Assembly: GCA_022767445.1 (NCBI GenBank)
Contig: JALENJ010000058.1
Span: 1 to 47,433, forward strand
DNA length: 47,433 nt
Source: Erysipelotrichaceae bacterium
Lineage (GTDB): Bacteria; Bacillota_I; Bacilli_A; Erysipelotrichales; Erysipelotrichaceae
Direction of reading: 5' to 3'
Shown here: piece by piece, positions 40,907 through 47,433 of the stretch
Layout: each line of letters starts with the position of its first letter
How positions within the stretch are numbered: the first letter of the stretch is position 1
Position numbers and translations under genes: made by a program
The notes under the pieces: generated by a model
What the model saw: the letters and a program-made list of their open reading frames with translations, nothing else
Database searches by the model: none
Told to the model about the DNA's origin: nothing

Positions 40907-40935
40907 TTGAACACACATACTTTGTGTACTATACT
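40907..40935 (+). promoter_or_regulatory. Candidate cas9 promoter
   Basis: TTGAAC (40907-40912), a 17-bp spacer, TATACT (40930-40935). Start would be near 40942, giving a ~220-base leader that is antisense to the tracrRNA gene. A second TATAAT at 40954 lacks a good -35. Confidence 0.6.
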
Positions 40936-40997: not shown

Positions 40998-41110
40998 AAA
41001 TAAAAACTCTCCGAAGAGAGTAATTATCACACAATGTGATTTCGCAATGCGATAATTTCGCTAAAAGCTTATTTGAACTTACTATGTAAATTATCTTACT
41101 GGTATAAGAC
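40998..41110 (-). ncRNA. tracrRNA of the type II-A CRISPR system
   Basis: Read on the minus strand, about 110 bases start near 41110 with an anti-repeat. On the + strand this shows as a degenerate repeat copy: ATTTGA (41071-41076) pairs with the repeat's first six bases (one G-U), a bulge follows, then 14 perfect bases (41081-41094, ACTATGTAAATTAT), then TGGTA (41100-41104). After it come a nexus hairpin GCGA/TCGC (41061-41049), a second hairpin ATCACA/TGTGAT (41040-41026), and a terminator ACTCTC-TTCG-GAGAGT (41021-41006) with T5. This is the standard type II tracrRNA plan. It should pair with pre-crRNA for RNase III processing and bind Cas9. Confidence 0.92.
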
Positions 41111-41116
41111 AATTAA

Positions 41117-41144
41117 ATAATACAAAAAACTGTAACAAAGTCAA
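41117..41144 (-). promoter_or_regulatory. tracrRNA promoter
   Basis: On the minus strand: TTGACT (41144-41139), a 16-bp spacer, TATTAT (41122-41117). The start falls about 7 bases further, exactly at the anti-repeat. Confidence 0.75.
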
Positions 41145-41164
41145 TATACAAAAGGGAGAAAATC

Positions 41165-44100
41165 ATGAAAGTTTTAAAACAGAATGGAAACAACAAGGTA
41201 GCAGGCGATTATTATTTAGGCCTAGATGTAGGCTCAAACTCTGCAGGTTGGGCAGTTACTGATACTGAATACAACGTGCAGAAATTTAAAGGAAAATCAA
41301 TGTGGGGAGCACGATTATTTGAAGAGGCTTCAACCGCAAAAGATCGTAGAACTCACAGAAGTGAGCGTAGACGTATTGCAAGAAGAAAGCAAAGATTATT
41401 GTTATTAGACTCCATATTTGAAAAAGAAATTACAAAAATTGATCCTAATTTCTTTGCACGTATGCAAGAGAGTAATCTTTGGGCAGATGATAAAACAGTA
41501 ACAGATAAATTTTTACTATTTAACGATAAAGGATATACAGATAAAGACTATTTAAAACAATATCCATCAATCTACCATCTAAGAGCAGATTTAATTCATA
41601 ATCCTGAAAAACACGATATTAGATTGGTATATTTAGCTTTACATCACCTAATCAAATATAGAGGACACTTTGTCTATGCAAATGCAAAGAGCGAGAATGG
41701 AATTGATTTAGATGAATCGATTAATAAATTAACAGAATGGCTCATTGGTAATGAAATTACTTTTGAACCTGCTGATTATGCTAAGTTTAAAGAAGTCCTT
41801 ATCGATGCAAGCTTAAAAATAAGTTTGAAAAAAATTGAACTGAAGAAGGCGTTTGGCAAAATTGATGATTCTAGCAGAATCAGTATAAAGACACTTCTTG
41901 AGCTACTTTCAGGTGCAAAAAAGAGAGTGAAAGATCTAATTGAAGGTATCGAACTGGATGATGAAAAGTTATCAATTTGTTTTAATGATGATTTAGATGA
42001 AAAACTAGATGAATTATCAAGTGTATTAGGTGATGATATAGAACTTATCCTAATTTTAAAGGAAGTATTTGATGTTGCAAAATTAAAAGCTTCATTAGGA
42101 GAGCATAAGTATATATCAGATGCTAAGATTGACTTATTTGAAAAAAACAAGAAAGATCTGAAACAATTAAAGCAATTTATAAAAGAATATCATCCAGAAG
42201 ACTACAAGAAGGTGTTTAACCTGTGTGATGATAAAAACTTTAAGTGCAATTATGCAGTATATTCGAAGTACAAAAATAACGAAACATGCAAGCAAGAAGA
42301 ATTCTGTAAATTTTTGAAGGGTAGATACCTAGAAGATTTGAAAAAAACTAATAATAATGAATATATTCGGATCGCTGAAGAGATAGAGGCAGGTACGTTC
42401 TTAACAAAACTTCGTACTAGCGAAAATAGTATCATCCCATATCAAATACATAAGATTGAACTAGAAGCAATTCTAGAAAATGCATCAAAATATTTAGAAT
42501 TCTTAAATGAAGAAACAGATAATTTAACATATGCAGATAAAATCAAATCAATCTTTACTTTTAAGTTGCCATACTATATAGGTCCGTTAAATAAGAAGTC
42601 AGAGTGGTCATGGGTTATTAGAAAAGATGAAAAAATATATCCTTGGAACTACAAAGATGTAATTGATGTAGATAAGACAGCACAAGAATTTATGGATCGA
42701 CTAAAGAACAGATGCTCTTATACCAATGATCCTGTACTACCTATGGATTCATTGCTCTATAGCAGATATAGCGTTTTAAATGAGATTAATCCACTGAAGG
42801 TAAATGGGAAATCTATCCCAGTCGAAGTAAAACAGAGTATCTATATAGACTTATTTGAAAACAGTAAGAAGAAAGTTACTAAGAAGTCTATATATACATA
42901 CTTATTAAAGAATGGTCACATCCAAAGAGATGATCAGATATCTGGAGTCGATAATGAACTAACTTCAAACTTAAAATCTTTCCATGATTTTAAGATGATC
43001 ATAGATTCCAATAAATGTACGATGGATGGTATTGAAAACATCATTCATGCGATTCTTGTGTATTCAGATGATAGAAAGATGCTTTCTAAATGGCTAAAAA
43101 ATAATATAAAGACATTAGAAGAGAAAGATATTAAATATCTTTCTAAACTAACATATAAGAAATGGGGTCGTTTTTCTAAAACATTCCTAACTGAAATATA
43201 TTCTATTAATCCAGAAGATGGTGAGGCAATAAATATTATTGATGCACTCTGGAATACTAACTACACAATTATGGAATTACTAAATAAAAAAGAATTCCAC
43301 TTTTCAGAATGCCTCCAGGAATATAGAGATGAAATGTATGCGGAAAGAGAAAGTATACATGATGCCTTAGATGATATGTATGTTTCGCCATCGGCTAAAC
43401 GTTCGATATGGCAAACACTGCGTATCGTTGATGAAATAGTAGATATTAAAAAATCTGCACCAAAGAAAATCTTTATTGAAATGGCTAGAGACAGTAGTAA
43501 AGCAATGAAGGGGAAGAGAACCCAAAGTCGCAAAGAGAGCTTGCTAAAACTCTATGAGGCATGTAAAAAAGATTCGATAGATTTATATGATAAATCTCTG
43601 CATGAAAAACTAAAGAATGAAACAGATACTAATTTGCGTAGAGATAAACTATATCTGTACTATACTCAAATGGGTCGCAGTATGTATACAGGTAAAATAA
43701 TTAATTTCGACCTTATGATGAAAGACAATCTCTTATATGATATTGATCATATTTATCCAAGATCAAAAATTAAAGATGATAGCATTACTAATAGAGTATT
43801 GGTTGAAAAAACAATTAATGAAAATGATAAAAAGGATATATATCCAATCGATGAGTCAACTCGAATGAAGATGACACCATTCTGGAAAATCTTGAAAGAT
43901 AAAAATCTAATTAATGATGAAAAATATAAGAGATTGACTCGTAACTTTGAATTAACAGAAGAAGAACTATCATCATTTGTTGCTAGACAATTAAATGTCA
44001 CACAACAGTCTACAAAAGCACTCGCAACATTACTATCGACTATCTATCCAACAACGAAAATAGTATATTCGAAAGCAGGAAATGTCAGTGAGTTTAGACA

Positions 44101-45157
44101 TGGCTTTGATTTAATTAAGTGCAGAGAAATCAATGATTTACACCACGCTTATGATGCATATTTAAATATCGTTGTAGGTAATGCCTATGATACAAAATTT
44201 ACTGAAAAATTCTTTTTGAATATTAGAAAAGAAAAATACAGTTTAAAACAGGTATTTAACTTTAATATCAAAGGTGCTTGGCAAAAAGACATAACAATTA
44301 ATACAGTTAAAAAATACTTAGCAATGTATAATCCGATTGTTACATTTGCTCCAAAAGAAGTTAAAGGAGAACTATTTGATAATAATATTAGACCTAAAGG
44401 TGAAGGACAGTTCCAAATCAAAAAAGGATTAGATATTGATAAATATGGCGGTTATAATAAAGTCTCTTGTGCATACTTTTGCGTTGTAGATAGCAAATTA
44501 AAGGGAAAAGTTATAAGAACATTATCACCAGTTTATATTAAAGATATTGAGTTGTATGAACATTCACCAGAAGAGTACTGTAGAACAATTTTAATGATGG
44601 AAGAGCCAAAAGTTATTAGACAGAAAATTCTCATGGGTTCTACATTTAATGTTGATGGAAAGAAACTTGTAATTACAGGCAGAACAAATGAAGACCGGTT
44701 ATGCCATCACACTTATCAATTGGCAATTTCATATGATTTTAGTAAATATATTAAAACTATTACAAAATATCTTTCAGAATGTGAAAAGGAACCAAATTTG
44801 GAAAGAGAGATAAAACTAGAAATTAATGCTGAAAAGAATTTTGAACTATATACGGAATTTGAGAGAAAGATTACTTCAACACCATATAGTTTAGTACTTA
44901 ACGCACTTAAGAAAGATATTGTTGATAATGAGCAGAAATTTGCTTCTCTTACAGTCTATGACCAATGCAAGATACTTGTTGAAATACTAAGTGCATTTAA
45001 GTGCAATCGAGTAACTTCAAATATTAAAGAATTAAATGGTAAGTCATCTGCTGGTGTTATTAAAATCTCTAGTAAGATTTCAAATTGTACTCAATTCGAA
45101 CTAATTAATCAATCTATTACAGGCCTATATGAGGTTAAGTTGGATCTTTTGAAATAG
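41165..45157 (+). CDS. cas9: CRISPR-associated endonuclease Cas9, type II-A
   Basis: RNA-guided double-strand DNA nuclease, 1330 residues. RuvC-I YYLGLDVGSNSAGWAV (catalytic Asp21), Arg-rich bridge helix KDRRTHRSERRRIARRKQR (about 59-77), the recognition lobe, RuvC-II KKIFIEMARDSSKAMKGK (Glu772), HNH YDIDHIYPRSKIKDDS (His862, acidic partner Asp860), RuvC-III LHHAYDAYLNIVVG (His994, Asp997), then the C-terminal PAM-interacting region (from about 1050). All expected catalytic residues are present. By length and operon it belongs to the SpCas9-like branch. RBS AAGGGAG. One base separates its stop from cas1. PAM cannot be predicted from sequence alone. Confidence 0.98.
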   Translation: MKVLKQNGNNKVAGDYYLGLDVGSNSAGWAVTDTEYNVQKFKGKSMWGARLFEEASTAKDRRTHRSERRRIARRKQRLLLLDSIFEKEITKIDPNFFARMQESNLWADDKTVTDKFLLFNDKGYTDKDYLKQYPSIYHLRADLIHNPEKHDIRLVYLALHHLIKYRGHFVYANAKSENGIDLDESINKLTEWLIGNEITFEPADYAKFKEVLIDASLKISLKKIELKKAFGKIDDSSRISIKTLLELLSGAKKRVKDLIEGIELDDEKLSICFNDDLDEKLDELSSVLGDDIELILILKEVFDVAKLKASLGEHKYISDAKIDLFEKNKKDLKQLKQFIKEYHPEDYKKVFNLCDDKNFKCNYAVYSKYKNNETCKQEEFCKFLKGRYLEDLKKTNNNEYIRIAEEIEAGTFLTKLRTSENSIIPYQIHKIELEAILENASKYLEFLNEETDNLTYADKIKSIFTFKLPYYIGPLNKKSEWSWVIRKDEKIYPWNYKDVIDVDKTAQEFMDRLKNRCSYTNDPVLPMDSLLYSRYSVLNEINPLKVNGKSIPVEVKQSIYIDLFENSKKKVTKKSIYTYLLKNGHIQRDDQISGVDNELTSNLKSFHDFKMIIDSNKCTMDGIENIIHAILVYSDDRKMLSKWLKNNIKTLEEKDIKYLSKLTYKKWGRFSKTFLTEIYSINPEDGEAINIIDALWNTNYTIMELLNKKEFHFSECLQEYRDEMYAERESIHDALDDMYVSPSAKRSIWQTLRIVDEIVDIKKSAPKKIFIEMARDSSKAMKGKRTQSRKESLLKLYEACKKDSIDLYDKSLHEKLKNETDTNLRRDKLYLYYTQMGRSMYTGKIINFDLMMKDNLLYDIDHIYPRSKIKDDSITNRVLVEKTINENDKKDIYPIDESTRMKMTPFWKILKDKNLINDEKYKRLTRNFELTEEELSSFVARQLNVTQQSTKALATLLSTIYPTTKIVYSKAGNVSEFRHGFDLIKCREINDLHHAYDAYLNIVVGNAYDTKFTEKFFLNIRKEKYSLKQVFNFNIKGAWQKDITINTVKKYLAMYNPIVTFAPKEVKGELFDNNIRPKGEGQFQIKKGLDIDKYGGYNKVSCAYFCVVDSKLKGKVIRTLSPVYIKDIELYEHSPEEYCRTILMMEEPKVIRQKILMGSTFNVDGKKLVITGRTNEDRLCHHTYQLAISYDFSKYIKTITKYLSECEKEPNLEREIKLEINAEKNFELYTEFERKITSTPYSLVLNALKKDIVDNEQKFASLTVYDQCKILVEILSAFKCNRVTSNIKELNGKSSAGVIKISSKISNCTQFELINQSITGLYEVKLDLLK

Positions 45158-45158
45158 T

Positions 45159-46067
45159 ATGGGATGGAGAACTGTGGTAGTGACGAATACTGCGAAACTT
45201 GATTATAAGATGGACTACCTTGTAGTCCGGGAAGGTGATCAGGTTTCGCGTATTCACCTAAGTGAAATTTCATTAGTGATTTTAGAAACACCAGCTATCT
45301 CTCTAACAGCATATTTATTATGTGAATTGGCTAAAAATAAGATTGATATTATATTTTGTGATGAGAAACGATATCCTAATGGCAGATATATGCCATTTTA
45401 TGGCTCCCATGATACTAGTAATAAAGTTAGAAAACAGTGTATATGGGATGATAACATCAAGAGATTGATTTGGAAAGATGTTGTAAAACAAAAAATACTA
45501 GGACAATTGAAAGTTCTAGAGAGATTTGAAAGACTAGATAATCCTGATAAACTCTCTCAATATATTTCAGATGTACAACTTGGTGATGAAACAAATCGAG
45601 AAGGACATGCTGCTAAGGTATATTTTAATAGTCTATTTGGAAAGGGCTTCTCTAGAGATAATAAGGAAGATCCAATTAATGCACAATTAAATTATGGTTA
45701 CGGAATACTGCTTTCTATTGTTTGTCGCGAAGTAATTAAAAATGGTTATATTACGCAATTGGGCATACATCACGATAATATGTTTAATGATTTTAATCTG
45801 GCATGTGATCTAATGGAACCATTTAGACCGTTTATTGATTTAATAGTATTAGGATTGAATCATAGTGAGTTTAATACAGTGATCAAGAGAGAAATATTAG
45901 GCTTTCTAAGCAGAAAAATCATTATTAATGATCGAGAACAGTATGTGATTAATGCAATAGAAATATACGTAAAGAGTATCTTGGATGCAATTACAAATCA
46001 CGATAGTAGTTTAATAAACTTTCCGGAATATGAATTTAAGACTTATGAGAGTAATTGTATTCTTTGA
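45159..46067 (+). CDS. cas1: CRISPR-associated Cas1 integrase (type II)
   Basis: Metal-dependent integrase that inserts new spacers. 302 residues. The metal ligands are visible as Glu148 (TNREGHAAKVYF), His205 (LGIHHDNMFNDF) and Glu220 (CDLMEPFRP). Normal length (290-305). The start is right after cas9, and the 3' end overlaps cas2. It works as a Cas1-Cas2 complex with Csn2 and Cas9 to select and integrate protospacers. Confidence 0.97.
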   Translation: MGWRTVVVTNTAKLDYKMDYLVVREGDQVSRIHLSEISLVILETPAISLTAYLLCELAKNKIDIIFCDEKRYPNGRYMPFYGSHDTSNKVRKQCIWDDNIKRLIWKDVVKQKILGQLKVLERFERLDNPDKLSQYISDVQLGDETNREGHAAKVYFNSLFGKGFSRDNKEDPINAQLNYGYGILLSIVCREVIKNGYITQLGIHHDNMFNDFNLACDLMEPFRPFIDLIVLGLNHSEFNTVIKREILGFLSRKIIINDREQYVINAIEIYVKSILDAITNHDSSLINFPEYEFKTYESNCIL

Positions 46068-46350
46068 TTTGCCAGTCACAACTGTTCAAGGTCTAAGGGC
46101 ATATACAAAATTTCGTAAATTTTTAATTAAAGATGGCTTCTTTATGATGCAGGAATCGGTTTACTCAAAATTAGCACAAAATCAACTAGCAGCAAATGCA
46201 TTGATATCACATATTAAGAAGAACAGTCCTGATGAAGGTTTGATCCAGATTCTAACGATTACTGAAAAGCAATATTCAAATATTGAAATGATAATTGGAT
46301 CGAAGAAAGGCGATGTAATTAATGATTCTAAAAGAATTGTTGTTTTATGA
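46030..46350 (+). CDS. cas2: CRISPR-associated Cas2 (type II)
   Basis: Structural partner of Cas1, 106 residues with ferredoxin-like fold landmarks: MRVIVFFDLPVTT, KFRKFLIKDGFFMMQESVY. In type II-A Cas2 proteins the FFDLP motif carries the conserved Asp. The ATG at 46030 and the ATG at 46045 (MRVIVFF) are both possible, neither with a good RBS; I keep the first because related proteins often begin a few residues before the MR motif. Overlaps cas1 by 38 bases. The csn2 ATG overlaps its stop (ATGA). Confidence 0.93.
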   Translation: MNLRLMRVIVFFDLPVTTVQGLRAYTKFRKFLIKDGFFMMQESVYSKLAQNQLAANALISHIKKNSPDEGLIQILTITEKQYSNIEMIIGSKKGDVINDSKRIVVL

Positions 46351-47006
46351 AAATAGTAAATTATAAGTATTTTGATATTATAAACTTTGAACAGTCTATC
46401 CAAGTGTTAGTTGTAGAAAATTTATTGTTATTTAGAAGCATTGTTTCTAGCTTAAAATTTCAAATTAATGAAAAAGTAGGGGATTTTATATTATCTGATA
46501 AAGATGAAATACTTGACTTATCAAAGCATGCCATATTAATAACAGACATTTACAATTTAGAGTCAATTGCTAAGCAAGTTAAAACAAAAGTTCAACAAAA
46601 TCTTGAGAAGAATTGTGATGAGGATGAAATATTCACAGATATATTTATAAGATTAAATGAATTAGGTGATAAATTAGTTGTCTCATCATCATATTCCTTA
46701 ATTTATAAACAAGAACTATCAAAAATGGAAATCATAAAGCTACTAGATTTTCAACTTGATTATTCATATGAGACAGAAATTGAACAGTTAATTGATTATA
46801 TAGATGTATTAAAGGATATCTGTAAAATTAAGTTATTTATCTTTGTTGGATTAGGTGACTATATGACAGAGGATGAGCTAATTGAGTTAGCAAAAATAGC
46901 AGATTATAAAGGGATCAAAATTCTGATGTTAGAAAGAAATAACCACGGTATTCAAGGGGAGTATCTGAATAAGAGGATAATTGATAAAGACTTATGTGTG
47001 ATATAA
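46347..47006 (+). CDS. csn2: CRISPR-associated Csn2 (type II-A)
   Basis: Ring-forming DNA-end-binding protein needed for spacer acquisition in type II-A systems. 219 residues, the short Csn2a size. The sequence is acidic and helical, with LLLFRSIVSSLKFQIN near the start and the hydrophobic IKLFIFVGLGDYMTEDEL strand-turn of the family. Coupled to cas2 by ATGA. Its last codons hold the probable pre-crRNA promoter (TTGATA, 46981, and TGATATAAT, 46999). Confidence 0.93.
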   Translation: MKIVNYKYFDIINFEQSIQVLVVENLLLFRSIVSSLKFQINEKVGDFILSDKDEILDLSKHAILITDIYNLESIAKQVKTKVQQNLEKNCDEDEIFTDIFIRLNELGDKLVVSSSYSLIYKQELSKMEIIKLLDFQLDYSYETEIEQLIDYIDVLKDICKIKLFIFVGLGDYMTEDELIELAKIADYKGIKILMLERNNHGIQGEYLNKRIIDKDLCVI

Positions 47007-47068: not shown

Positions 47069-47433
47069 GTTTGAGAACTATGTAAATTATGCTGGTAGTA
47101 AAACCGAGTTGACGTCTCGAAAGTAATCAATCTTGTTTGAGAACTATGTAAATTATGCTGGTAGTAAAACAACTTATAAAACTGCTTATGAGTCTGGTTC
47201 GTTTGAGAACTATGTAAATTATGCTGGTAGTAAAACTCAATCAATGCATTATATACTAAATCTCCGTTTGAGAACTATGTAAATTATGCTGGTAGTAAAA
47301 CTTGAAAACTACCAAGAATAACTTAAATCCGTTTGAGAACTATGTAAATTATGCTGGTAGTAAAACGCTGTAATGCATTTCTGACTGTATCTATGTGTTT
47401 GAGAACTATGTAAATTATGCTGGTAGTAAAACG
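47069..47433 (+). CRISPR. Type II-A CRISPR array, at least six repeats, continues past the window
   Basis: Six identical 36-bp repeats start at 47069, 47135, 47201, 47266, 47331 and 47397 (first bases GTTTGAGAAC, last bases GTAGTAAAAC). The five complete spacers are 30, 30, 29, 29 and 30 bases, all different. Repeat 6 ends at 47432, and one base of spacer 6 is seen. The leader is on the left, so new spacers are expected there. Repeat 5' sequences match the tracrRNA anti-repeat. Confidence 0.98.

Follow-up and report, generated by a model that had tools for sequence, protein, structure and literature searches.

Comparative analysis points to a complete type II-A tracrRNA gene with a probable 5'-terminal hairpin in an Erysipelotrichaceae bacterium

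The closest solved Cas9 to the protein described here is FrCas9 of Faecalibaculum rodentium (765 bits, vs about 433 bits for SpCas9), which recognizes an NNTA PAM. The FrCas9 structure is available as PDB 9JWK according to PMC13052146. This type II-A system also comes from the Erysipelotrichaceae; its tracrRNA was located upstream of and opposite to cas9 by small-RNA sequencing, and its crRNA repeats are about 20 nt long (PMC8931148). The S. pyogenes tracrRNA (tracr-S/tracr-L) is likewise transcribed divergently from cas9 and consists of a lower stem, bulge, upper stem, nexus, hairpins and terminator, the same parts as found here. A further point of comparison is provided by the tracrRNAs of Clostridia, Erysipelotrichia and Treponema with GTTTGAGAG-type repeats (loci L054-L133), which share with the present gene the promoter layout, the AAGUUCAAAUAA core, the nexus, two stem-loops (SL1 and SL2), the terminator and, in most cases, a hairpin at the transcript start, while their stem sequences differ.

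We analysed a window of 47,433 nucleotides, covering positions 1 to 47,433 of contig JALENJ010000058.1 (assembly GCA_022767445.1). The host assembly, of 1.9 Mb and 97% completeness, belongs to the Erysipelotrichaceae and is grouped with Lactimicrobium. The window holds a CRISPR-Cas locus in the order cas9-cas1-cas2-csn2-array, with the tracrRNA gene ahead of cas9 on the opposite strand as in the FrCas9 system, and the presence of csn2 together with this gene order assigns it to subtype II-A. The Cas9 has clearly diverged from FrCas9 (1330 vs 1372 aa). The protein genes and the array are as follows.

41165..45157, plus strand: cas9, type II-A, 1330 aa (TIGR01865, E=1e-254; Pfam REC, PI, RuvC, HNH and BH domains)
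45159..46067, plus strand: cas1 (TIGR03639)
46030..46350, plus strand: cas2 (TIGR01573)
46347..47006, plus strand: csn2, the marker of subtype II-A (TIGR01866)
47069..47432, plus strand: CRISPR array of six 36-nt repeats GTTTGAGAACTATGTAAATTATGCTGGTAGTAAAAC, running off the contig end

The spacers of the array are 29-30 nt long; a PAM search with the 3' ends of three of them returned no match among viral contigs.

The minus strand from 41144 to 40998 is very probably the complete tracrRNA gene of the adjacent Cas9. The preliminary description had already proposed a self-contained gene at this place, and its promoter, anti-repeat and terminator are confirmed here, while the anatomy between them is corrected. 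The RNA displays every testable hallmark of a type II-A tracrRNA: an anti-repeat against the adjacent array, neighbouring cas9, cas1, cas2 and csn2, a nexus directly after the duplex, and 3' hairpins followed by a terminator. The predicted parts are listed in order of transcription.

41139..41144, minus strand: promoter -35 box TTGACT (consensus match)
41117..41122, minus strand: promoter -10 box TATTAT (consensus match)
41093..41110, minus strand: probable 5'-terminal hairpin GUCUUAU-ACCA-GUAAGAU, from the predicted +1 at 41110 (folding, conservation, compensatory change, RNAalifold)
41071..41105, minus strand: anti-repeat (co-fold with the 36-nt repeat, uniqueness in the genome)
41060..41068, minus strand: nexus mini-hairpin GCU-UUU-AGC (compensatory change in the genus, arm-pair types across relatives)
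41042..41052, minus strand: SL1, UCGC-AUU-GCGA (compensatory change, swap null)
41026..41040, minus strand: SL2, AUCACA-UUG-UGUGAU (core CACA/UGUG conserved, outer pairs varying together across relatives)
40998..41021, minus strand: Rho-independent terminator with UUCG tetraloop and U tract (shuffle test, compensatory change)

The two promoter boxes, both named before, are separated by a 16-nt spacer and match the consensus at 10 of 12 positions. A scan of 80 related cas9 loci yielded 73 tracrRNA genes, 71 of them distinct, each immediately upstream of cas9 and on the opposite strand; a TTGACA-17-TATAAT promoter is common to almost all, with a mean -35 match of 5.8/6 and a 17-nt spacer in 58/72 relatives. 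The promoter consensus alone places the predicted transcription start at G41110. The gene would accordingly be transcribed away from cas9, from its own sigma-70-type promoter to the UUCG terminator, and the RNA would be about 105-113 nt long. The terminator, ACTCTCTTCGGAGAGT plus a T tract at 41021-41006, was described correctly; one such structure is present in its region vs 0.1 expected in shuffles.

The tracrRNA promoter overlaps the cas9 leader, here (41139-41165) and in the L054-L133 loci, in many of which the ribosome-binding site of cas9 falls between the two tracrRNA promoter boxes and is followed by the -35 box before the ATG. Since no clear cas9 promoter is found between the two genes, cas9 transcription may begin within the tracrRNA gene or on its far side and run antisense to the tracrRNA. 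A promoter-like TTGAAC-17-TATACT lies on the plus strand at 40907-40935, upstream of the tracrRNA terminator; if it serves cas9, the leader would carry the full tracrRNA antisense.

The repeat of 36 bp was correctly read in the preliminary description; it is present in six copies from 47069. The 14-base anti-repeat that it reported is exact at 41094-41081, yet the pairing extends further, since the outer UACCAG (41105-41100), which had been left out, pairs with CUGGUA of the repeat. The anti-repeat thus comprises this outer part, the 14-nt upper stem AUAAUUUACAUAGU, a bulge, and the lower stem UUCAAAU (41077-41071). Co-folding of the repeat with the tracrRNA gives the lower stem, bulge and upper stem expected of such a duplex, together with the downstream hairpins. 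A better anti-repeat elsewhere in the genome was looked for by pattern search of the 1.9 Mb assembly and none exists: apart from the six array repeats, the 14-mer occurs mismatch-free at 41094-41081 alone, and the tracrRNA gene has a single strong copy. By homology and established type II biology, the anti-repeat would pair with the pre-crRNA repeat through lower stem, bulge and upper stem, RNase III would be expected to trim the duplex, and the nexus, SL1 and SL2 would serve as Cas9-binding modules.

Next to the gene itself, we considered its occurrence in the genus. Among 60 sampled genus genomes, strong tracrRNA homologues (E below 1e-16) occur in four (G060, G016, G035 and G014), and related cas9 sequence is present in each of these; the genome G018, with a distant Cas9 only, has no strong homologue. 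In Lactimicrobium massiliense (G014; locus L199, with L021/L007), cas9 is split and interrupted by stops; its tracrRNA keeps the 3' modules, but through decay the lower stem has degenerated and the start hairpin is missing. For a set of 41 divergent sequences RNAalifold returned no structure, as hairpins of unequal length were misaligned by MAFFT, and this set was replaced by a genus alignment of four sequences and by module-wise tests. The genus alignment holds 22 pairs in five helices, and all of them are kept in 4/4 sequences (100% of cells). Two-sided compensatory change is seen in four of the five helices and in none of the controls, in which pair partners were slid by 1-3 columns. Specifically, the start hairpin changes from A-U to G-C (UUA/UAA to UUG/CAA), the nexus from U-A to A-U (giving GCA/UGC), SL1 from C-G to U-A (UCGC/GCGA to UCGU/ACGA), and the terminator from CUCUC/GAGAG to CUCCC/GGGAG.

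These changes bear directly on the position of the nexus, which the preliminary description had placed at GCGA/TCGC. Both the co-fold with the repeat and the relatives give GCU-UUU-AGC as the first hairpin after the duplex. The energies of the two folds are nearly equal (-16.1 and -16.3 kcal/mol) and do not separate them, so the choice rests on comparison between species. The GCGA/UCGC helix (41061-41058 with 41052-41049) stays pairable in all four genus sequences, but no two-sided compensatory change is seen there, the complete four-pair helix forms in only 7/71 relatives (with GCGA itself unchanged in six of the 7), and some of its bases belong to two helices for which covariation is seen. 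The GCU/AGC position, on the other hand, shows 14 arm-pair types across the 71 relatives, and in the GC-containing subset 22/30 are paired vs a swap-null mean of 7.9 (max 16), the test having little power for the AU-only nexuses of many relatives. Taken together, the comparison assigns the conserved nexus to GCU/AGC at 41068-41060, followed by SL1 and SL2, and makes a nexus at GCGA/UCGC very improbable. The UCGC of that label belongs to SL1, which is strong in 60/71 relatives vs 31 (max 41) in the swap null. The region of the second hairpin reported earlier holds two hairpins, SL1 and SL2, which had been reduced to one. Counting against the two-hairpin fold, the minimum-free-energy structure of the free RNA at 41057-41022 (minus strand) fuses SL1 with SL2 in a single extended hairpin, AAUUAUCGCA...UGUGUGAUAAUU, which is species-specific and more stable than the conserved SL1+SL2 arrangement.

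The nexus GCU-UUU-AGC, and SL1 and SL2 with the CACA/UGUG core, set this tracrRNA apart from that of S. pyogenes. The previous argument for a guide RNA orthogonal to SpCas9 drew on the wrong nexus, and the Cas9 distance is the better one: according to PMC3936727, a dual-RNA is accepted only by closely related Cas9s, which, given that distance, makes orthogonality plausible.

An Rfam search found no tracrRNA family at threshold. It did return a weak match to RAGATH-30 (RF03055), 28 bits on 41078-41024 of the minus strand, far below the gathering score of 59.5. The element order of RAGATH-30, AAAUAAG, a short U-rich stretch and two hairpins, is that of the 3' part of the tracrRNA, and RAGATH-30 may be an unrecognised tracrRNA family. 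It matches the tracrRNA of one relative, L057, at 30.9 bits, but almost no other tracrRNA; two equally good matches lie in coding genes, and the remaining matches in relatives are mostly something other than tracrRNA. On this question, scanning viral contigs by pattern found nothing. The likeness is a resemblance, and family membership is unproven.

The gene is ordinary in kind; its start hairpin is absent from the preliminary description. The outer anti-repeat falls within the loop and 3' arm of this hairpin. Among 52 distinct long-form relatives, 49 form a stem of 5 bp or longer (5'-arm shuffles: mean 25, max 35) and 27 one of 7 bp or longer (mean 3.7, max 11). The null consists of 500 shuffles of the 5' arm only and ignores shared ancestry; arm swaps between species give similar values. 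Additionally, RNAalifold recovers the hairpin in the genus alignment when no structure is given. Agreement is weaker in a second set, 13 long-form loci largely from Bacilli, where 11/13 reach a stem length of 5 bp or more (null mean 7, max 11); several of these hairpins are placed entirely 5' of the anti-repeat, which takes no part in them. We judge it likely that the start hairpin is real and selected. It is not obligatory, since it is absent from 13/65 distinct relatives, whose 5' ends are short and start 13-21 nt before GUUCAAA. For a class of tracrRNAs (L064, L066, L067, L073, L089, L092, L099, L113, L119, L120 and L130) the predicted start is 13-19 nt before GUUCAAA, and the primary transcript would already have about the length of the mature anti-repeat.

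The inverted repeat at the 5' end sits between two divergent genes, and operators are typically palindromic, so it might instead be a DNA operator between the tracrRNA and cas9 promoters. Several features of the pairing make this reading rather improbable. The arm sequences differ among species while the pairing is kept, and the pairing ends at the predicted +1: 30/49 stems begin exactly there vs 20% in shuffles, and in-register Watson-Crick pairing rises from about 35% upstream of +1 to about 85% at +2 to +5, some of this rise reflecting the selection of the best register, an effect already contained in the shuffles. The stem flanks hold an excess of G-U pairs, which fill 22/84 non-Watson-Crick positions vs about 10% expected. 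Together, the kept pairing, the stem start at +1, the step in pairing and the flanking G-U pairs speak for an RNA hairpin rather than a DNA palindrome.

That the hairpin is a functionless by-product, for instance a relic of repeat duplication at the locus, seems unlikely, though less so than the operator. The 3' arm is constrained in any case by its complementarity to the repeat, and the short-form tracrRNAs do without a hairpin; nevertheless, the free 5' arm follows changes of the 3' arm across many arm sequences.

Autorepression by tracr-L is known in type II-A (PMC11417352), and the 5' arm, being a pairing partner of the anti-repeat, looks like part of the repeat. Might the 5' region then yield a natural single guide of this kind, aiming Cas9 at its own promoter as in S. 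pyogenes? The layout of the locus speaks strongly against it. Here the start hairpin covers the outer anti-repeat and no room is left for tracr-L: just 55 bp separate the predicted +1 from the cas9 ATG, any longer transcript would need a start within cas9 itself, and the one further promoter-like site on the minus strand there, at 41237-41208, is weak (9/12). By inspection, no GUUUGA-like lower-stem partner is seen upstream of the anti-repeat. The natural single guide of S. pyogenes is characterized by a long isoform that has a repeat-like partner for the lower stem and a spacer directed at the cas promoter. The distance to the ATG and the missing lower-stem partner make such a guide highly unlikely.

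As for the function of the start hairpin as an RNA element, co-folding predicts that the full-length 36-nt repeat opens it in 41/41 loci. With a 20-nt crRNA repeat, 80% or more of the hairpin pairs persist in 27/41, this locus included. Combined with the mature crRNA repeat of about 20 nt reported for FrCas9, these folds lead us to propose, tentatively and as one possibility, that the hairpin acts as a cap and gate in many type II-A tracrRNAs. It would protect the 5' end of the free tracrRNA and hold the outer anti-repeat in its loop (ACCA/CUACC, complementary to the repeat); the full-length pre-crRNA repeat would open it, and the processed crRNA repeat of 20-22 nt would leave it closed. The 5' exonuclease in Bacillota is RNase J, and protection from such an enzyme is suggested by the start of the stem at +1. 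Protection also fits better than gating for those Bacilli hairpins that lie wholly 5' of the anti-repeat. In the open-access literature that was searched, no account of a 5'-terminal tracrRNA hairpin turned up, which does not by itself prove novelty.

Our analysis provides a corrected list of guide-RNA parts, comprising repeat, anti-repeat, nexus, hairpins and terminator, for an uncharacterised Cas9 related to FrCas9; a single guide built from the GCGA/UCGC nexus would misread important bases. If the start hairpin is functional, it would add a step to tracrRNA stabilisation and to the start of crRNA pairing in type II-A systems, one that standard single-guide designs have hidden by removing the 5' part. 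Should the cap and gate prove true, this would be a step of guide biogenesis for which the open-access literature yielded no description.
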